Notes under the pieces: model-generated | The model's input: the letters and a program-made list of their open reading frames with translations, nothing else | Database searches by the model: none | What the model was told of the DNA's origin: nothing | Origin: Spirosoma fluviale | GTDB taxonomy: Bacteria; Bacteroidota; Bacteroidia; Cytophagales; Spirosomataceae | Direction of reading: 5' to 3' | NCBI GenBank assembly: GCA_945883625.1 | Contig: CAMCXW010000017.1 | Span: 1 to 46,640, forward strand | Length of the DNA stretch: 46,640 bases | Made by a program: the position numbers and the translations under genes | Shown here: positions 8,229 to 46,640 of the stretch, in pieces | How positions within the stretch are numbered: the stretch's first letter is position 1 | Layout of the letters: every line of letters starts with the position of its first letter

Positions 8229-8441
8229 TTAGGATTTAATCGACTCTTTGTGTTTTGAATACGCGAGGATTCGATCGACGACACGATCAGCGGGCTCGTA
8301 AGCCGCTTGATCTAATGCGTTTTTGACCTGGTTAAAGGACGCTAACTCCGAGCGTTCTTTGGCAGATAAATTTTGGGTGAAGCCCGATTCAGGCTCATAC
8401 AAATTTTTAATGAGGTCATTTGGGGTAAAGCTTTGCGTCAT
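8229..8441 (-). CDS. Small hydrophilic protein overlapping the ECF sigma gene
   Basis: 70 residues, starting at ATG 8441, 26 bp inside the end of the sigma-factor gene. No membrane segment, no cysteines; helical and charged, with SAKERSELASFNQVKNALDQAAYEPADRVVDRILAYSK as the most structured part. I do not recognise a family. The position directly behind an ECF sigma, with overlap, is where an anti-sigma usually sits, but it is too small for a membrane anti-sigma; a soluble sigma-binding protein is one possibility. Confidence 0.7.
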   Translation of the reverse strand: MTQSFTPNDLIKNLYEPESGFTQNLSAKERSELASFNQVKNALDQAAYEPADRVVDRILAYSKHKESIKS

Positions 8442-9015
8442 AGGCAATCTCTTGTTTTGTTAGCATTTTCCTCAAGTTGATAAGCGCATAGCGCATTCTT
8501 CCCAAGGCCGTATTGATGCTCACACCCGTTTGATCCGCGATTTCTTGAAAACTTAAGTCTTCATAATGCCGCATGATCAACACTTCGCGTTGTTCATCAG
8601 GTAATTTTTTGATCAATTCCCGCACATTTGCGACTTGATCTGCCTTCAATTGTATGTCCTCAACCGAGTCCTCTGCAAATTGAAAACTGTTAAACAATTT
8701 CGACCCGTCCTCCAGCACAATTGTTGGATAACGTTTCTCCTTCCGGAAATAATCGATCGCCATGTTGTGCGCAATACGCAGAATCCAAGGTAAAAATTTC
8801 CCTTCTTCATTGTATCGCCCAGACTTCATCACGTCGATGGCCTTAATATAGGCTTCCTGCATTAGGTCTTCCGCTACATAGCGGTCCTTGACGATCAGGT
8901 AAATAGTTGTGTACACTTTGGATTTACTACGTTTGACTAATGTCTCAAACGCTTTATCGTCCCCTTGGATGTAAGCTGATAATAAAGCCGCATCGCTAAC
9001 CTGAATTTTAATCAT
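8416..9015 (-). CDS. ECF-type RNA polymerase sigma factor
   Basis: 199 residues. Region 2: DDKAFETLVKRSKSKVYTTIYLIVKDRYVAEDLMQEAYIKAI...FLPWILRIAHNMAIDYFRKEKR (about 18-98), and region 4: LPDEQREVLIMRHYEDLSFQEIADQTGVSINTALGRMRYALINLRKML (about 138-186), the helix-turn-helix that reads the -35 region. Monodomain sigma-70 of the extracytoplasmic-function class. A good promoter lies upstream and a 90-nt leader precedes ATG 9015. Regulon unknown; co-transcribed nth and pnuC hint at DNA damage or NAD economy, which is inference only. Confidence 0.94.
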   Translation of the reverse strand: MIKIQVSDAALLSAYIQGDDKAFETLVKRSKSKVYTTIYLIVKDRYVAEDLMQEAYIKAIDVMKSGRYNEEGKFLPWILRIAHNMAIDYFRKEKRYPTIVLEDGSKLFNSFQFAEDSVEDIQLKADQVANVRELIKKLPDEQREVLIMRHYEDLSFQEIADQTGVSINTALGRMRYALINLRKMLTKQEIAYDAKLYPK

Positions 9016-9110: not shown

Positions 9111-9140
9111 CAAAAGTAGATAAATCTTTTGTAAAACAAA
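9111..9140 (-). promoter_or_regulatory. Promoter of the sigma/nth/pnuC operon
   Basis: Minus strand: TTTG (9140-9137), 18 bp, TACTTTTG (9118-9111), a close match to the Bacteroidota TTTG/TANNTTTG promoter. Confidence 0.7.
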
Positions 9141-21264: not shown

Positions 21265-22667
21265 GATATATTTTTGTTTTAATTAGTTTGATTTGGAGTT
21301 TTTCAACCAGTGCGCAGGTAGATAAGAAGACGCAATTGGAACAACAGAAAAAGGACAATTTGGCTAAAATCAAGGAGTTGAATTCCATTATTTCTAGGAC
21401 CTCTAAAAAGAAGAAGGCATCCATAGGTAAACTGAATGTGTTGAAGCAGCAGATCGGGGTGCAGAAAAAGCAGATTACTATATTGAATGAAAACCAACAA
21501 CTCTTAGCGGCAGAAGCAACGAAGTTGGCCCGCGAAAGTGACATCCTTGCGGCCAAATTAGAGCGCTTAAAAAAGAATTACGCGCTGATGTTGTTTGAGT
21601 CACAGAAGGTTTCAACAGTTTCCAATAAAATCAGTTTCTTGATTTTATCGAATGATTTTGGTCAATTCACGCGACGCATGGATTTTTTACGTCAGTTTAC
21701 GAAGAATCGAAAAGATCAGGCGAATAAAATTTTTGAGACGCGTCAGGATTTAATGACCAAGAAGCAGCAAGTTATTTTCAAGAAGAATGAAGAGAAGAAG
21801 GTGATTGTCGAAAAGGAAAAAGAAACCAAAACGCTTGAGGTATTAAAGACCAAGGAAAATAAGGTGGTTACGGTCTTAACGCAGCAGGAAAAAAAGTTGC
21901 GCACGGAATTGGAGCGTAAGAAATTAGCCATTCGGAAGTTGGACAACTTAATTGCTGGAATCGTACAGCGCGAAATTCAAAAGTCGATGGAGCGGGAACG
22001 TAAGTTACGTGAAGCAGCCCAAGCGCGTAAATTAGAAGTAAGTAAGCCAACTTTACCGAAAGTAAAATTGGAAGAAGGAGTGGTGAAGAGATCGGAGAAA
22101 TTGGGCGTAGAGGAACAGCCAAAGGCCGAAACTAAACTAGAAGCGAAGGCTGAGAAGAAAGAAGTTGTGAAAGTGAAAGCTGTTGTGGCTGAAAAAGTTG
22201 CCGAGCCAGCGTTGAATTCAAATACGTATTATATGAATGCGGAGGAGGCGAAATTAGCTAGTTCATTTAGCGCCTTGCGCGGACGGATGCCGTTCCCGGT
22301 TCCTTCTGGATTTATCTCGGATCACTTTGGTGTACATAAACACCCTATTTTGAAGGGAGTGATGATCAATAATAATGGAATTGATATTCAAACTTCACCG
22401 GGCTCCCCTGTGCATACCGTATATGACGGCGTTGTGCAGTCGGTGGTGAACATACCGGGAATCAATATGGTGGTAGCGATCCAGCACGGAGATTATTTTA
22501 CCGTATATAGTAAGTTGGCCGGCGTATCTGTCAGTACGGGTCAAAAAGTGAAAACGGGCCAACGAATCGGATCGGTTGCTTCGGATGAGGATGGTACGTC
22601 GGAGATTAATTTCCAGGTTTGGAAAAATACGGTTCGCCAAAACCCTGAAGTCTGGTTGCGTCGTTAA
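21261..22667 (+). CDS. EnvC-like murein hydrolase activator with degenerate LytM domain
   Basis: 468 residues: signal peptide (to SAQ, residue 19), long coiled coil about 20-255 rich in Lys/Glu/Gln, a Lys-Glu-Val linker about 265-315, and a LytM/M23 domain about 345-467 (GRMPFPVPSGFISDHFGVHKHPILKG...). Zinc ligands of active M23 enzymes are missing: the H-x-x-x-D motif reads NNNGIDI and the H-x-H motif reads INFQVW. This is the state of E. coli EnvC and NlpD, which switch on amidases at the division septum rather than cutting peptidoglycan. Its stop codon shares TTAA with the stop of the convergent receptor gene. Confidence 0.9.
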   Translation: MRYIFVLISLIWSFSTSAQVDKKTQLEQQKKDNLAKIKELNSIISRTSKKKKASIGKLNVLKQQIGVQKKQITILNENQQLLAAEATKLARESDILAAKLERLKKNYALMLFESQKVSTVSNKISFLILSNDFGQFTRRMDFLRQFTKNRKDQANKIFETRQDLMTKKQQVIFKKNEEKKVIVEKEKETKTLEVLKTKENKVVTVLTQQEKKLRTELERKKLAIRKLDNLIAGIVQREIQKSMERERKLREAAQARKLEVSKPTLPKVKLEEGVVKRSEKLGVEEQPKAETKLEAKAEKKEVVKVKAVVAEKVAEPALNSNTYYMNAEEAKLASSFSALRGRMPFPVPSGFISDHFGVHKHPILKGVMINNNGIDIQTSPGSPVHTVYDGVVQSVVNIPGINMVVAIQHGDYFTVYSKLAGVSVSTGQKVKTGQRIGSVASDEDGTSEINFQVWKNTVRQNPEVWLRR

Positions 22668-25003
22668 ATTTTATACAAGATGCGTAGGCTGATGTTTCGA
22701 CCTTGGTCGTCTGTAAAATATCGGAAGCGATTAAGATAATCGCGGTACGATGTATTCAGGGCGTTATTAATGCGAATACCCACATCTATTTTCTTGAGGT
22801 TGATTCCCCAATTCGCTTGTACTAATTGGTAGCCTTTAGGTGGTTCCGAGTAATCAGATCCTGGTTCCACGCGTGTTTGTCGGCTTACTTGAATGAGGCC
22901 AACACTTACATATTGCTTTTCCTGCATCCAACGGTAGGTCAAGGTATACTCAAAGCGATTTGCTGGAATATTAACGAGGTAACGTTTGTTGGCCGACGAG
23001 TTGTCAACTGCTTGGACGATACTTGTTTTGTGTTGGAGCGCGAGATTGGGTGTCAACTGGTAGGTGGCTTGCGCATCGATACCGCTAAAAATGGCATTGA
23101 TTTGTTCGTAGGTAAAAACCGGAAACGCGCCACGTACGGTGGTGAAGTATTCGGCCACGCCACGCGTAACCATGGGCTTTAAATAGATAAAGTTTTGAAT
23201 GTAATTGTGGAAGACGCCAAGTTCAATTTGTAATTTATTGGCATCAATTAAGGTGTTTAAGCTGGCATTGTAGGCCGTTTCCCCTGTCAAATTAGGATCT
23301 CCAATTTCAAATGCAGCGGCACCATGATGGACGCCATATGAGAATAATTCATTCACGCCAGGCGCACGGAATGCACGAGCTAGGATCAGGTGATTTGTCC
23401 ATTTTTCTGACCAATGGTATTTAAGGCCGGCGCTTCCTGAAAGGCCCATGAAATCGTTCTTACTACGGTTAATTATGGTTGAATAATTGATTTTTGGCCG
23501 ATATACGTCGATTGTTTTTTGGTCGACACGTAGGCCAACTTCAACTTCAAATTTTTCTTTTACCAGGCGCTCAATCGCAAAAACACCTAAGGAATTTTGG
23601 AGGTAATTGGGGAGTAGGCTAGATGTTAATGTGGGTATGGTTACATTTTTGCCCGAGGTTAAATTTCCTTGCATTTGTAAGTTAAAGCCAAATTGCCCTT
23701 TCCACTTTTTAGCTGTGTTGGACTCATCCCAAATTAGTTCTGTTGTGAGGGTATTTAGTAAAAAGCGCAAATTATTTATGCCTCTACCGGCGCGCAATAC
23801 GTCGAGTTCGAGCCTTTCATTATTTTGTAATGCGATAGTTCCGCGTAGGGTTTGACCTAATGCGAATTTAAATTGAGATTTAAATTTACCGAGGCGATGG
23901 TTTATATCTTGATATGGACGAGATATTTCTCTACTAAATTCAAGGGGAGTAAATGCCTCAAAAGGTCTTGAACGGGCAATCGATTTTTCAAGATCATTTA
24001 CATTGCCAATGTGTGAGCCTAAATAGATACCTATATCTGAGTGAAAGTGACTGTAAAATAAATCATTAGACCAGTTATTTTTTTTGTAGCCAATGGCTGC
24101 TGAAAAATTCTCTTCTCGAACACCTGTATTTGCCAAAAAATAGTCGGCCGTACGTATATTCCCCCCATTTTTCAGCGTTCCTTGCAAACGCCAGCCCCAT
24201 CCATTTGCGCGGTTAAATCCACCTTCCAGCATGCCGGACAAAACGGCTTGTCGGCCATTCGTAAAATAAATCGATTGCATTTCCCCTTTCAATCCAGCAC
24301 TATCTGGTAGAGCATCGGGTTCCATCATGACCATACCACCGATGGCATCTCCTCCATACCGTAACCCGCCGGGGCCTTTGATTACTTGAATATTTTTGGA
24401 GACAAATGGGTCAACCTCTGGTGCGTGTTCGCTGCCCCATTGCTGACCTTCTTGTCGGATACCATGGTTTAAAATGATTACTCGGGCTGAGTGCATTCCG
24501 TGAATGACGGGTTTTGAGATGGTGCTACCTGTTTGTAAACTTTGTACGCCGCTGATTCCACGTAACATTTCTCCTAAACTTAAACCGTCTCGTTCGGCTC
24601 GTTCGGTTTCGCTTAAGTTGCCGCGAAGTTGGGCACTACTCTCACTTTTTTTCCCGCTTACTACAACTTCTTGGAGGTGCTCGTCATGGCTTTCTAGCGT
24701 GAAATTTTCGTTGTGATTTGCCTCATCTTGGATGGATATTGGAATTTCTACCGCATCAAAACTGCTCATTTTGCAGATCAATGTATAGTCGCCAGGACAA
24801 AGGGATTGGATTTTGAAATGACCATTTCGGTCGGATAGAGCGATTTTATTTGTTCCTTTTATGTAAATATAGGCCCCAGAAATGGTCTCTTTGGTTTCTT
24901 TTGAAGTCACATTTCCTTCTAAGGTACATGAACAAGTGGCCTGCCCGAATAGCATGCTTGCTGGTGCAAGAAGCAATAAAAGAAAAAATATTTTACGAAA
25001 CAT
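22664..25003 (-). CDS. TonB-dependent outer-membrane receptor
   Basis: 779 residues: signal peptide (to about residue 20), carboxypeptidase-regulatory-like beta-sandwich (about 27-105, LEGNVTSKETKETISGAYIYIKG), plug (about 115-235: GLSLGEMLRGISGVQSLQTG, RVIILNHGIRQEGQQWGSEHAPEVDPF, IQVIKGPGGLRYGGDAIGGMV) and a beta-barrel ending in aromatic-hydrophobic ILYKI. TonB box EVVVSG at about 111. The substrate is not evident. The His-containing plug loop (GMHS, NHG, EHAPEVD) is seen in receptors for metals or metal complexes, so zinc or another metal is possible. No riboswitch or sigma/anti-sigma pair is beside it. Confidence 0.94.
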   Translation of the reverse strand: MFRKIFFLLLLLAPASMLFGQATCSCTLEGNVTSKETKETISGAYIYIKGTNKIALSDRNGHFKIQSLCPGDYTLICKMSSFDAVEIPISIQDEANHNENFTLESHDEHLQEVVVSGKKSESSAQLRGNLSETERAERDGLSLGEMLRGISGVQSLQTGSTISKPVIHGMHSARVIILNHGIRQEGQQWGSEHAPEVDPFVSKNIQVIKGPGGLRYGGDAIGGMVMMEPDALPDSAGLKGEMQSIYFTNGRQAVLSGMLEGGFNRANGWGWRLQGTLKNGGNIRTADYFLANTGVREENFSAAIGYKKNNWSNDLFYSHFHSDIGIYLGSHIGNVNDLEKSIARSRPFEAFTPLEFSREISRPYQDINHRLGKFKSQFKFALGQTLRGTIALQNNERLELDVLRAGRGINNLRFLLNTLTTELIWDESNTAKKWKGQFGFNLQMQGNLTSGKNVTIPTLTSSLLPNYLQNSLGVFAIERLVKEKFEVEVGLRVDQKTIDVYRPKINYSTIINRSKNDFMGLSGSAGLKYHWSEKWTNHLILARAFRAPGVNELFSYGVHHGAAAFEIGDPNLTGETAYNASLNTLIDANKLQIELGVFHNYIQNFIYLKPMVTRGVAEYFTTVRGAFPVFTYEQINAIFSGIDAQATYQLTPNLALQHKTSIVQAVDNSSANKRYLVNIPANRFEYTLTYRWMQEKQYVSVGLIQVSRQTRVEPGSDYSEPPKGYQLVQANWGINLKKIDVGIRINNALNTSYRDYLNRFRYFTDDQGRNISLRILYKI

Positions 25004-25128
25004 GAATGCTTAAAAGGGGTGGTAAATATACGGTAAAATAGGCTGAAAAGCCTACTAATTGATTATTTCAACTAACTCGCCGATGAACACCAATATCTTG
25101 TCGATAAAATTTTGTTTAATTTATTTTG

Positions 25129-25185
25129 AAATTTGTTAAACAAATATTTGTTTTGTTTATTCTTTTTATAAATTTGTTAAACAAA
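25129..25185. promoter_or_regulatory. Twin palindromic operators upstream of the carotenoid sigma gene
   Basis: TTTGTTAAACAAA occurs at 25132-25144 and 25173-25185, centres 41 bp apart (about four helical turns); each is a 6-bp inverted repeat around a central A, and 16 bp are identical around both. Related half sites (TTTGTTTAAT at 25111-25120 and a TTTGTTTTGTTTA-like stretch near 25147-25159) lie around them. Site 2 overlaps the -7 box, site 1 is just upstream of the -33 box. Confidence 0.75.
25147..25176 (+). promoter_or_regulatory. Promoter of the carotenoid-locus ECF sigma gene
   Basis: TTTG (25147-25150), 18 bp, TAAATTTG (25169-25176): both elements match the Bacteroidota consensus. 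Predicted start near 25181, about 20 nt before ATG 25201. Confidence 0.75.
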
Positions 25186-25200
25186 ATCAACAGAAAAAAG

Positions 25201-25704
25201 ATGACGGCGTTAGAATTTTCTTATCAAGTAGGCAATTTTTCCAAATTTTTGAAGCCATTTGCGTTACGTTTAACGCGTGATGGAGACGATGCAAACGATT
25301 TGGTACAAGACACTTTAGTTAAGGCATATACAAATCGCGATAAGTATATGGATGGAACGAACTTGAAGGCATGGTTATTTACCATCATGAAGAATACGTT
25401 CATTACTCAGTACCAACGGATGGTTCGTCGGAACACATTCATTGACACGACAGAAAATTTACATTTTATCAATTCATCAGAAACTGTTCAAATCAATTCC
25501 GCTGAATCTACGTTCATGCGTGAAGATATAAATTTGGCATTAAGTCATACAGAAGAGATGTACCGAGTTCCTTTTCTCATGTATTTTGAGGGATTCAAAT
25601 ATCATGAAATAGCAGACGAGCTAGACTTGCCAATTGGCACAGTCAAAAACCGAATTCATATCGCTCGGAAGTCATTAAAGCAGCATTTGCAAATGTATGC
25701 ATAA
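25201..25704 (+). CDS. ECF-type sigma factor of the carotenoid locus
   Basis: 167 residues. Region 2 FSKFLKPFALRLTRDGDDANDLVQDTLVKAYTNRDKYMDGTNLKAWLFTIMKNTFITQYQRMVRR (about 13-78) and region 4 MYRVPFLMYFEGFKYHEIADELDLPIGTVKNRIHIARKSLKQHL (about 120-163). The start is ATG 25201; a frame continuing back to 25126 would cross the promoter. Location directly before crtI and crtB recalls other bacteria where an ECF sigma controls carotenoid genes in response to light or oxidative stress (CarQ in Myxococcus); here that role is inferred. A terminator separates it from crtI, so it may act in trans on crt or other promoters. Confidence 0.94.
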   Translation: MTALEFSYQVGNFSKFLKPFALRLTRDGDDANDLVQDTLVKAYTNRDKYMDGTNLKAWLFTIMKNTFITQYQRMVRRNTFIDTTENLHFINSSETVQINSAESTFMREDINLALSHTEEMYRVPFLMYFEGFKYHEIADELDLPIGTVKNRIHIARKSLKQHLQMYA

Positions 25705-25740
25705 CATATAATACGTTTTTTGGTTAACAGAGGAGGAAGT

Positions 25741-25770
25741 AAAAAGTCAGATTTTATCTGACTTTTTCTT
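25741..25770 (+). terminator. Intrinsic terminator after the ECF sigma gene
   Basis: AAAAAGTCAGAT (25741-25752), TTT, ATCTGACTTTTT (25756-25767): perfect 12-bp stem with T-rich 3' side. Confidence 0.92.
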
Positions 25771-25810: not shown

Positions 25811-27277
25811 ATGAAGAAGATAATTGTAATTGGTGCAGGATTTTCAGGCTTGTCAACTGCGACAGCGCTTGCTGATCAAGGATATGAGGTTGAAATTTTT
25901 GAAAAAAATGACCAAGCGGGTGGTCGCGCACGTGTGTTCTCGGAGAAGGGATTTGTCTTTGACATGGGCCCTAGTTGGTATTGGATGCCTGATATTTTTG
26001 AAGATTACTTCGGCAGGTTTGGTAAAAAGCCATCGGATTATTACAATTTAGTTCGTTTAGACCCGTCGTACACAGTTATCTTGGATGAGCAGCAAATCAT
26101 CGATATGCCTGCAAATTACACTGCACTAAAAAACTTGTTTGATTCCATTGAGCCGGGTGCTGGAAATGCATTAGATCGATTTTTGGAACAAGCGGCCTAT
26201 AAATACAAGGTGGGGATTCAAGAATTTGTTTGGAAACCATCCACTAAAATCACCGAATTTTTAAGTCTTCGCGTTTTGATTGATGCACTCCGCATGGATG
26301 TTTTTCAATCTTTTTATAGCCATGTTCGGAAGTATTTTAAATCGCCAACGCTCTTGAAATTAATGGAATTTCCCATTTTATTTTTGGGAGCTATTTCGCA
26401 AAATACGCCTGCCATGTATAGTTTAATGAATTATGCAGAAATTAAATTGGGCACTTGGTATCCGATGGGCGGCATGCACAATATTGTCAAAGGGATGGTT
26501 GCCCTAGCTGAGGAAAAGGGTGTTAAGATTCGGACCAACATGGAGGTTACGGGTTTTGGCATAACGAATGGCCGTGTGCAATCTGTCAAAACAACTTCTG
26601 GAACGTGGGAGGCTGATGCGGTAGTTGCCAGTGCAGATTACCACCATGTAGAAGAGCTTTTAGGAGATGCCTATCGAAATTACGATGAGTCGTATTGGGA
26701 TAAACGTGTCATGGCTCCGTCTTCGTTATTATTTTATTTAGGCATAAATAAGCGTTTGCCGCGCTTGAAGCATCATAATTTATTTTTTGATCGTGATTTC
26801 TCCGTGCATTCGCATGAAATTTATACGGAGGCTTCTTGGCCAACTGACCCGCTTTTTTATGCTTCAGCACCTTCTGTGACGGATCCATCTGTGGCTCCTG
26901 ATGGTTGTGAAAATGTATTTTTACTGATTCCGGTGGCGCCAAATTTGGTTGATACCGAGGAGGTACGCGAAAAATATTTTGCGCAATTGATGGATCGTTT
27001 GGAGGCGTATTGTGGTGTTTCGATTCGGGATTCGATTGTTTATAAGCGTTCGTATGCGCACCGAGATTTCATCGGAGACTATCATGCGTTCAAGGGGAAC
27101 GCGTATGGGTTAGCGAACACATTGATGCAAACGGCTATTTTGAAGCCTAGTTTAAAAAATAAACGGGTGGCTAATTTGTTTTACACGGGCCAACTAACCG
27201 TTCCGGGACCGGGTGTTCCTCCTTCACTTATATCAGGTTTAGTCGTTGCTAAGGAAGTTGACAAATCATTTAACTAG
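25811..27277 (+). CDS. crtI: Phytoene desaturase (CrtI type)
   Basis: 488 residues. FAD-dependent desaturation of phytoene to lycopene or an intermediate, at the membrane. Seen: dinucleotide-binding IVIGAGFSGLSTATALADQG (residues 5-24, GxGxxG) followed by EKNDQAGGRARVFSEKGFVFDMGPSWYWMP, YPMGGMHNIVKGMVALAEEKGVKI in the middle, and the C-terminal family signature NLFYTGQLTVPGPGVPPSLISGLV. Number of desaturation steps cannot be told. crtB begins 4 bp downstream, so the two form one operon. Confidence 0.96.
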   Translation: MKKIIVIGAGFSGLSTATALADQGYEVEIFEKNDQAGGRARVFSEKGFVFDMGPSWYWMPDIFEDYFGRFGKKPSDYYNLVRLDPSYTVILDEQQIIDMPANYTALKNLFDSIEPGAGNALDRFLEQAAYKYKVGIQEFVWKPSTKITEFLSLRVLIDALRMDVFQSFYSHVRKYFKSPTLLKLMEFPILFLGAISQNTPAMYSLMNYAEIKLGTWYPMGGMHNIVKGMVALAEEKGVKIRTNMEVTGFGITNGRVQSVKTTSGTWEADAVVASADYHHVEELLGDAYRNYDESYWDKRVMAPSSLLFYLGINKRLPRLKHHNLFFDRDFSVHSHEIYTEASWPTDPLFYASAPSVTDPSVAPDGCENVFLLIPVAPNLVDTEEVREKYFAQLMDRLEAYCGVSIRDSIVYKRSYAHRDFIGDYHAFKGNAYGLANTLMQTAILKPSLKNKRVANLFYTGQLTVPGPGVPPSLISGLVVAKEVDKSFN

Positions 27278-27281
27278 TCAA

Positions 27282-28088
27282 ATGGATTTATATTTAAAGG
27301 TATCGCTCGATTCGAGTAAGTTGTTGACACAAGCTTATTCAACCTCTTTTTCATCTGGGATTCGGACTTTGGATAAACAATATCATGAAGCGATTTATGC
27401 GATTTATGGTTTTGTGCGTTTGGCGGATGAAATTGTAGATACGTTTCACGACCAGGATAAGCAAGCGCTTTTAGCGCGATTCCGCGCTGCCACCTTTCAG
27501 GCAATTGAAGAAAAAATTAGCTTGAATCCTATTTTACATTCATTTCAATGGGTGGTGAATACATTTCAAATTGGGCATGATTTGATTGATGCTTTTCTAG
27601 TTTCCATGGAAATGGATTTGACGGATCGGGTTTATGATGTTGCGACGTACAAAACGTATATATATGGTTCCGCAGAGGTTGTTGGCCTTATGTGTTTACG
27701 TGTTTTCTGTTTAGGGAATTCGGTGGAATATGATTTTTTACGTGCGGATGCTTGTGCTTTGGGTTCAGCTTTTCAAAAAATTAATTTTTTACGGGATATA
27801 CGTTCAGATTTTGATGAGCGTGGACGTGTGTATTTTCCGGGAGTTAATTTTGAAACGTTCTCAGATAAGGAGAAGAAGGAGATTGAGGCTGATATTCAAT
27901 TGGATTTTGATGCTGGTTTGCGGGGTATTGAGAATTTGCCAAAACCTGCTCGAAAAGGTGTCCTGCTCGCATACGAATATTACATTCGATTGTTTGAAAA
28001 GATCAAGGCACTTCCTGCATCTCGAGTTAAGGAAGAGCGTATTCGAGTGCCAGATTGGGAAAAATTGTTGATTTACCTCCGCGTGTAA
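27282..28088 (+). CDS. crtB: Phytoene synthase
   Basis: 268 residues. Head-to-head condensation of two geranylgeranyl diphosphates to phytoene. Both Mg-diphosphate aspartate motifs are visible: DEIVD at residues 49-53 and DIRSD near 172-176 in KINFLRDIRSDFDERGRVYFP, plus AYSTSFSSGIRTL at the N-terminus and YVDVATYKTYIYGSAEVVGLM-like substrate pocket. ATG 27282 lies 4 bp after crtI; an in-frame start at 27246 would lie inside crtI. No cyclase, hydroxylase or ketolase genes follow, so the final carotenoid is built from genes elsewhere. Confidence 0.95.
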   Translation: MDLYLKVSLDSSKLLTQAYSTSFSSGIRTLDKQYHEAIYAIYGFVRLADEIVDTFHDQDKQALLARFRAATFQAIEEKISLNPILHSFQWVVNTFQIGHDLIDAFLVSMEMDLTDRVYDVATYKTYIYGSAEVVGLMCLRVFCLGNSVEYDFLRADACALGSAFQKINFLRDIRSDFDERGRVYFPGVNFETFSDKEKKEIEADIQLDFDAGLRGIENLPKPARKGVLLAYEYYIRLFEKIKALPASRVKEERIRVPDWEKLLIYLRV

Positions 28089-45881: not shown

Positions 45882-45889
45882 TAAGTTTG
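45882..45889 (+). promoter_or_regulatory. -7 box upstream of the cobalamin riboswitch
   Basis: TAAGTTTG fits TANNTTTG; start expected near 45894, immediately before the riboswitch. No clear -33 element. Confidence 0.5.
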
Positions 45890-45892
45890 TGA

Positions 45893-46072
45893 CAGTTTAA
45901 GGTGTATCAAACCATCCGTGGTTTGCTGCTTAATAGGGAATCCAGTGAAAAACCGGAACTGTCCCCGCAACTGTAAGCTTTCAAAATGCTTTTCAACCTC
46001 ATGTCACTGGCCTCGGCTGGGAAGACTGGAAAGAATCGGAAGCGAGTCAGGAGACCTGCCTTGAATGATCCT
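45893..46072 (+). ncRNA. Cobalamin (B12) riboswitch
   Basis: Aptamer landmarks in order: TAATAGGGAATCCAGTGAAA (45931 on), CCGGAACTGTCCCCGCAACTGTAAGC, TCACTGG, GGCTGGGAAGACTGG, and the B12 box GAGTCAGGAGACCTGCC at 46044-46060. It binds adenosyl- or other cobalamins and lowers expression of the following receptor gene when B12 is plentiful. Boundaries are approximate. Between aptamer and ATG 46150 I see no clear hairpin with a T run apart from a weak candidate near 46100-46132, so control of translation rather than termination is my guess. The region 45783-46149 holds no protein gene. Confidence 0.95.
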
Positions 46073-46149
46073 TGACCTTGTTTTACGGAGGATGAACTGG
46101 GGTCGAGCGTTCGATTACCTTTTTATCTTCACGCCCATTGGGCAAAAAA

Positions 46150-46640
46150 ATGTTAAAATCACTATCAGCGATTGCGATCGCTACTTTATTCCTGTGTGGG
46201 TATCATACCTCGCTTGGACAAATAACATCCTTTACCGATTCCACATTGGCCGAAGTTCAAGTAACAGCCAGTAAGTTTCCGGCGAAATTAGCGCAGACAG
46301 GGAAAGTCGTTTCGATTATATCGCGCCAACAAATTCAAGCGAGTTTAGGTAAAGGGTTAGGGGAATTATTACAAGAAACGGTCGGCATTTCTGTCGTAGG
46401 TTCTCGAAGTGCGCCGGGCACGAACCAAGAAATCTATGTCCGCGGGGCAAATACGGGCCATGTGTTATTATTGATTGACGGATTTCCAGCGAATGACCCT
46501 TCCCATATTTCATCGGTGATGGATTGGAATTTAATTAATTTGGCAAATCTGGAACGTATTGAAATCATGAAAGGTGGGCAGTCGACATTATATGGCTCGG
46601 ATGCGATGGCAGCCGTCATTAATTTAGTCACAGATCGATC
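46150..46640 (+). CDS. TonB-dependent receptor, BtuB-like (3' end outside window)
   Basis: Open to the window end; 163 complete codons are visible. Signal peptide MLKSLSAIAIATLFLCGYHTSLGQ, then a TonB-box-like stretch (LAEVQVTASKFPAKLAQTGKVVSII), and the plug: SLGKGLGELLQETVGISVVGSRSAPGTNQEIYVRGANTGHVLLLIDGFPANDPSHISS, LINLANLERIEIMKGGQSTLYGSDAMAAVINLVT. A receptor directly behind a cobalamin riboswitch is most likely for cobalamin or a cobinamide/corrinoid uptake. It lacks the carboxypeptidase-regulatory-like domain of the receptor at 22664-25003. The gene runs off the window, so the rest was not seen. Confidence 0.93.
   Translation, partial: MLKSLSAIAIATLFLCGYHTSLGQITSFTDSTLAEVQVTASKFPAKLAQTGKVVSIISRQQIQASLGKGLGELLQETVGISVVGSRSAPGTNQEIYVRGANTGHVLLLIDGFPANDPSHISSVMDWNLINLANLERIEIMKGGQSTLYGSDAMAAVINLVTDR

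Follow-up and report, generated by a model that had tools for sequence, protein, structure and literature searches.

What controls the sigma factor promoter that lies ahead of two carotenoid genes in this DNA, and which element does the controlling protein read? An exact search of the window, by which we mean the whole 46,640-nucleotide stretch that was analysed, found TTTGTTAAACAAA twice, at 25132-25144 and 25173-25185, with a start-to-start distance of 41 bp. Both copies sit within a 16-bp repeat, AAATTTGTTAAACAAA (25129-25144 and 25170-25185). A preliminary description had claimed twin 13-bp palindromes in a common repeat, flanking the -33 box with the second copy overlapping the -7 box, and these coordinates and positions were verified in the sequence. 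The degenerate TTTGTTT half sites that it mentioned are likewise present, and include the left arms of both operators described below. The arrangement TTTG, 18 bp, TAAATTTG is a Bacteroidota-type promoter; its -7 box ends 25 bp upstream of the ATG of the ECF sigma gene (Table 1).

The 13-bp palindrome as the unit, however, was not borne out. The element conserved in 80 orthologous promoters was a 34-bp inverted repeat, TTTGTTTAA-N16(17)-TTNAACAAA, and, judged by this conservation, the repeat is the real unit. On the same reading, the 13-bp palindrome is a product of the junction between the right arm of the 34-bp repeat and the TTTG of the -7 box. That TTTG forms the left half of the 13-mer, and the profile of non-sigma sites shows no conserved TTTG there. 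We conclude that the locus is very probably a repressible ECF sigma promoter whose two 34-bp operators serve a CarH-type MerR/B12 photoreceptor with its gene elsewhere in the genome (contig C4). The case is made by sequence: the element is conserved, keeps a fixed spacing, accompanies carH and light-related genes, and overlaps the core promoter, and the photosensing residues are conserved.

Table 1. Features around the sigma factor promoter, in window coordinates
Feature	Position	Strand	Remarks
Divergent TonB-dependent receptor	22664..25003	-	
Distal operator	25111..25144	+	TTTGTTTAA (25111-25119) - N16 - TTAAACAAA (25136-25144); exact consensus match
-33 box TTTG	25147..25150	+	Between both operators; seen in sequence
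Proximal operator	25152..25185	+	TTTGTTTAT (25152-25160, one mismatch) - N16 - TTAAACAAA (25177-25185)
-7 box TAAATTTG	25169..25176	+	Within proximal operator spacer; seen in sequence
ECF sigma factor, 167 aa	25201..25704	+	ATG at 25201; Pfam Sigma70_r2, Sigma70_r4_2; family orthologues
Conserved non-coding element 3′ of sigma gene	25715..25767	+	GTTTTTTGGTTAACAG + terminator-like hairpin (25741-25767)
crtI-like phytoene desaturase	25811..27277	+	Pfam Amino_oxidase; crtI name from context
crtB phytoene synthase	27246..28088	+	Pfam SQS_PSY

Conservation of the element was scored in 80 orthologous sigma loci, comprising 30 loci of the source genus and 50 regions picked among the matches listed (45 from other genera, 5 from the source genus). 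The score was the best match to 18 positions, one letter free, in the 150 bp upstream of the sigma gene. Loss of the sites before orthologous sigma genes had been named in advance as evidence against them; 77 of the 80 loci scored at least 16/18 (18 in 49 loci, 17 in 20, 16 in 8, 15 in 1 and 14 in 2), scores that are no independent test, as the 34-bp consensus was read from these same loci. Against 200 shuffles each, which preserve dinucleotides and not phylogeny, 78 loci stood at p ≤ 0.005. Two sigma promoters (L040 and L041) barely exceeded their shuffles, at p = 0.02 and p = 0.045 respectively; in four loci (L062, L064, L067 and L080) the best match lay away from the usual place. The spacer was 16 bp in 65 loci and 17 bp in 15. 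The proximal operator is the copy kept upstream of orthologous sigma genes, and the proximal TTTGTTnAACA was present in all 35 source-genus loci. Two exact 13-mers occurred in 1 of these 35 loci and in none of the 45 from other genera, 12 of which carried at least one. Doubled operators (at least 15/18) were found in 15/35 source-genus loci and 1/45 other-genus family loci. Doubling at 43-45 bp also occurred in 16 of 80 CarH loci (the best 80 of 593), several of them from Algoriphagus. In several genera a second operator lies some 200 bp ahead of sigma, in the interval that separates it from a divergent ORF (ORFs assigned by eye).

Association with carH was examined in those best 80 of 593 loci from a CarH-alignment scan of titled public genome contigs (821 kb). 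Going by the names in their titles, these are presumably all Bacteroidota except L275 (Thalassovita), many of them only MAGs. A sigma orthologue followed within 1.2 kb of carH in 38 of the 80, and an operator (at least 16/18) lay between the two genes in 35 of these 38 pairs, compared with 6 of 760 shuffled intergenic sequences; three pairs in this set (L301, L303 and L305) had no operator between the genes. Among the 42 of these best 80 loci without an adjoining sigma gene, 6 had a site scoring at least 17. Spacing in the same best 80 of 593 was specific. Among gaps of 8 to 29 bp, 18/18 sites occurred only with a gap of 16 (20 sites) or 17 (1 site). A threshold of at least 17/18 gave 38 sites with a 16-bp gap, 5 with a 17-bp gap and 2 over all other gaps, and 16/18 or better gave 66, 11 and 0-11 per other gap. 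Directly upstream of carH, scores of 17-18 were reached in 6 of 20 other-genus CarH loci.

Whole genomes were also examined (counts for the family, genus g7 and the phylum were tallied by hand from tables). Of the 222 genomes of the family, 203 have CarH at E < 1e-40 and 163 have the sigma orthologue; the nine genomes with the sigma factor and without CarH are every one less than 90% complete. The 34-bp pattern occurred in 175 of the 222 and its reversed control in 20. In genus g7, no sigma orthologue was found at E < 1e-40 in any of 48 genomes, and the operator was present in 38. All 38 belong to the 44 genomes with CarH, and none to the 4 without. Six g7 regions, chosen for carrying the site, were read: five had the operator directly before a carH-crtI-crtB run (L118-L121 and L123), and the sixth (L122) had it before a fasciclin-like gene.

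For the phylum, 109 genomes were drawn evenly and searched for CarH (E ≤ 1e-30) and for the exact site with a 16-bp gap. Both were found in 12 genomes (the source genome included), CarH only in 9, the site only in 3, and neither in 85. The operator was therefore present in 12/21 CarH-positive and 3/88 CarH-negative genomes (Fisher 3e-8, uncorrected for phylogeny); without the source genome the CarH-positive fraction was 11/20 (Fisher 1e-7, likewise uncorrected). The reversed control matched in 1 genome. In 7 of the 12 genomes carrying both, a site was at most 200 bp away from carH. The exact site was absent from 9 of the 21 CarH-positive genomes of the draw. Two of the three sites in CarH-negative genomes fall inside a coding gene and the other overlaps the start of another gene.

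The source assembly (2.3 Mb, 88.8% complete) encodes two MerR_1 proteins. One of them, on contig C4, is a CarH-type protein of 293 aa with MerR and B12-binding domains. PF13411 (57.2 bits) and PF02607 (35.7 bits) both exceeded their cut-offs, and PF02310, the second B12 domain, scored 21.2 bits, under its cut-off of 32.1. Residues 2-248 match Thermus thermophilus CarH at 4e-21. The protein holds both Wx9EH and ExHxxG; we take Wx9EH and E/DxHxxG to be the photosensing and B12-ligand motifs of CarH/LitR. Its gene comes after a carotenoid-biosynthesis gene (PF04240). The earlier proposal of a regulator acting in trans, for instance a light-, redox- or B12-dependent repressor, appears essentially right, a B12-based light-dependent repressor (CarH) being the most likely. 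At 45883-46638 (+) the window also contains a cobalamin riboswitch (112.5 bits, Rfam) followed by the gene of a TonB receptor that has a Plug domain. This receptor is likely to serve B12 uptake, in keeping with a B12-dependent regulator.

Wx9EH was present in 55 of 55 CarH homologues read, and strict [ED]xHxxG in 41 of the 55. One search covered 55 genomes chosen for having operator matches, and its 55 of 55 is therefore no rate. The motif was altered with Wx9EH kept in 14 homologues (L184, L189-L195, L197, L200, L201, L203, L205 and L207), the last G mostly changed to S; 13 retain the His, and L207 has H to Q. Judging from these residues, B12 dependence may vary, or some proteins may be drifting towards a B12-independent function.

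The operator was compared with known systems. Published CarH operators are built of direct repeats of 11 bp, nnnnTnnACAn, placed in tandem and three or four in number (PMC9304148, in part). The half-site TnnACA from the same source occurs in both arms here, as TTNAACAAA holds TNAACA, on each strand, and it hardly varies across the profile of those sites that were selected by it. The CarH systems of T. thermophilus, Bacillus megaterium and Myxococcales resemble the present one in half-site, in an operator lying over core promoter elements, in the link to carotenoids, and in protein architecture (MerR HTH and B12 domains, Wx9EH, ExHxxG). At the present locus, the proximal operator spans the -7 box of the sigma promoter. 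The geometry differs: those proteins read tandem 11-bp repeats, whereas here there is an inverted pair with a 16/17-bp spacer and no conserved central repeat, and the visible target in the source genome is an ECF sigma gene. The site profile showed no published-type direct repeats, and at 11 bp from the arms towards the centre it had no conserved TnnACA; the flanks shown carry little information, and the centre of the 16 bp between the 9-bp arms is only AT-rich.

Myxococcus xanthus CarA offers a further likeness. Two inverted repeats, upstream of and overlapping the -35 region, were proposed at its crt promoter, and the site was later re-read as 11-bp direct repeats with pseudorepeats (PMC9304148, in part); the likeness is drawn from the description of the site. 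Bacteroidota merR-rpoE-crt clusters, for example of Echinicola, share a MerR regulator, a stress sigma factor, crtI and crtB with the arrangement considered here; in the passages of PMC8683446 consulted, no operator is described for them, and the word light is absent from that text. The sequence evidence as a whole lends good support to regarding the operator as a new variant within the known CarH light-switch family. The operator is about as long as three 11-bp boxes, which may point to the three-contact CarH tetramer having been re-oriented on DNA. As a hypothesis, 11-bp boxes around both half-sites would leave approximately one box length between them.

Studied CarH proteins bind AdoCbl and DNA in the dark, repressing, and are released by light (PMC9304148, in part). 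By analogy, an AdoCbl-bound CarH oligomer would bind both arms in the dark and cover the -33/-7 region. The proximal operator overlies the core promoter, and its distal partner stops just upstream of the -33 box, so bound CarH should occlude RNA polymerase. In light, the cobalamin bond would break, CarH would leave the DNA, and the sigma factor would be made; it would then raise expression of crtIB and other genes. The operator 41 bp upstream, about four helical turns away, probably allows cooperative binding on the same DNA face.

Searches of the source genome placed the intact repeat at a single promoter. The 34-bp repeat occurred at 0-1 mismatch only at the sigma promoter, in two copies, and an exact 34-bp match was found in 34 of 38 source-genus genomes, all at the sigma promoter among the matches listed. 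With up to three mismatches there was no excess in the source genome over the reversed control (32 + 40 versus 39 + 36), and in this 88.8% complete assembly there was no convincing 34-bp site besides the two at the sigma promoter. The 13-mer form TTTGTTNAACAAA occurred in five places in the assembly, and its reversed control in none. All three further matches are coding: one is in a ribBA-like gene, one in a DUF1080-like gene, and one where a rhomboid-like gene ends (genes named by eye). The rhomboid-like copy also lies 14 bp upstream of a dxr-like gene. This gene was rejected as a regulon member and the match put down to coding coincidence: the 13-mer was kept in 4 of 30 source-genus loci, and the 34-bp pattern scored at most 14/18 in these 30. 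Within the window, loose 13-mer matches (at most two mismatches) numbered 10, compared with a shuffle mean of 5.9; 8 of 100 shuffles reached 10, and at this tolerance the window does not stand out. A one-mismatch copy, TTTGTAAAACAAA, lies at 9128-9140, with another ECF sigma gene (8416-9015, -) on one side and a DUF3471 gene on the other; the 34-bp pattern, with up to three mismatches, is absent there.

These loose matches, no more numerous than in the shuffles or the reversed control, and the identity of the 13-mer's left half with the -7 box are what can be said for a coincidence of promoter boxes, in which AT-rich DNA with TTTG boxes yields palindromes by chance. The spacer specificity, the reversed-pattern controls and the shuffles speak against it, and leave its probability close to negligible. 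It is scarcely more probable that the ECF sigma factor itself reads the sites, as part of a promoter under its own control. The motif is kept before nearly every sigma orthologue examined, as that would predict, but genus g7 retains the operator where the sigma orthologue was not found, the operator also stands at non-sigma targets, and a fixed-spacing inverted repeat is, in our view, unlike a -35/-10 pair.

A regulator other than CarH, such as a small MerR-like protein on contig C7, is unlikely. The presence of two MerR_1 proteins in the source genome would allow it, as would the position of the operator, which does not adjoin carH in the source genus (the carH promoter had a site in 0 of 30 loci). 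However, nearly all adjoining carH and sigma pairs of the best 80 of 593 CarH loci have the operator in the gap between the genes. It also precedes carH in g7 and co-occurs with CarH in the phylum draw, and the C7 gene is next to alaS-like and dprA-like genes (by eye) with no 34-bp match at up to three mismatches. Somewhat less remote, and still rather improbable, is that CarH binds and acts as an activator, or senses B12 supply instead of light. Many MerR proteins activate from promoter spacers; the window has its cobalamin riboswitch before a TonB receptor, and B12-site residues vary in relatives. Against this, the overlap of the operator with the -7 box is consistent with occlusion, and the targets include light-protection and light-use genes. 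Moreover, the CarH proteins studied repress in the dark (PMC9304148, in part). Repression by CarH, relieved by light, is the reading that we favour.

The expectation that the motif would find the rest of the regulon was realised in part. The exact 13-mer found no member in the source genome, whereas the 34-bp form stood before rhodopsin, crt and photolyase genes in relatives, so related genes do carry the site. The 11 other CarH-positive genomes of the phylum draw that have the site hold 23 sites. Eight of them are, by their coordinates, no more than 200 bp from carH; L337 and L338, two of these eight, were fetched, and both precede a crtI-like gene. The 15 others were read. Fasciclin-domain genes (Pfam) lay behind five (L320, L325, L327, L330 and L331). 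One site was between rhodopsin and carotene dioxygenase (L328). In L326 a flavin reductase gene comes next, and then one for a photolyase-related protein; in L333 the site precedes an ECF sigma gene. The distance to a photolyase is 203 bp in L322, where a different gene is closer on the opposite side. Neighbours were unclear at six (L319, L321, L323, L324, L329 and L332).

Twenty non-sigma regions of the family were chosen among the matches listed, and genes were named by Pfam for examples and by visible similarity for the rest. Among these, the site preceded carH in five, rhodopsin in two, carotene dioxygenase in one and a fasciclin-like gene in one; neighbours were unclear in four (L125, L127, L128 and L134). 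In the remaining seven (L124, L126, L130-L133 and L136), the operator stood before pterin synthase and GTP cyclohydrolase genes, and six of the seven also had a divergent 450-aa oxidoreductase-like ORF. From these neighbourhoods, pterin synthesis may be under light control, perhaps for the photolyase cofactor. Elsewhere, a crtI-like gene was directly behind the site in L209, L213 and L214. Fasciclin proteins also lay behind the operator in L212 (Pfam) and, by similarity, in L210, L211, L215 and L216, as in L122 above. The algal fasciclin AstaP binds carotenoids, and a light-induced cyanobacterial homologue showed no carotenoid binding under the conditions used (both from the excerpted part of PMC10147662). 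That the fasciclin-domain proteins are light-induced carotenoid carriers is at most a possibility.

On balance we lean towards a Bacteroidota operator code, an inverted TnnACA pair 25 bp centre-to-centre and often doubled 41-45 bp apart, that serves a phylum-wide B12 light regulon. If this is true, the regulon would join an ECF sigma relay, carotenoid synthesis, rhodopsin and retinal synthesis, pterin synthesis, photolyases and secreted fasciclin-domain proteins. A sequence-searchable operator would make light regulons of Bacteroidota predictable from sequence. It would also connect light with carotenoid production relayed by the sigma factor in the freshwater source genus, put forward the idea of CarH reading an inverted operator, and point to fasciclin-domain proteins as putative light-induced partners. 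No description of a B12 light-control operator in Bacteroidota was found in the open-licence literature; one may exist elsewhere.

A separate observation concerns the non-coding DNA that follows the sigma gene. An element of the form TTGATTGAGTAGTTTTTTGGTTAA..AGAGGAAGG..hairpin-U run is kept across much of the family (L038-L082), including loci with no crtI found nearby, for example L042, L049, L062, L064 and L077. No Rfam family was found at the sigma locus or in this element (8 sources searched). The consensus fold of 20 sequences had 14 pairs, 8 of them with changes on both sides, and the element is a candidate small RNA or conserved terminator.
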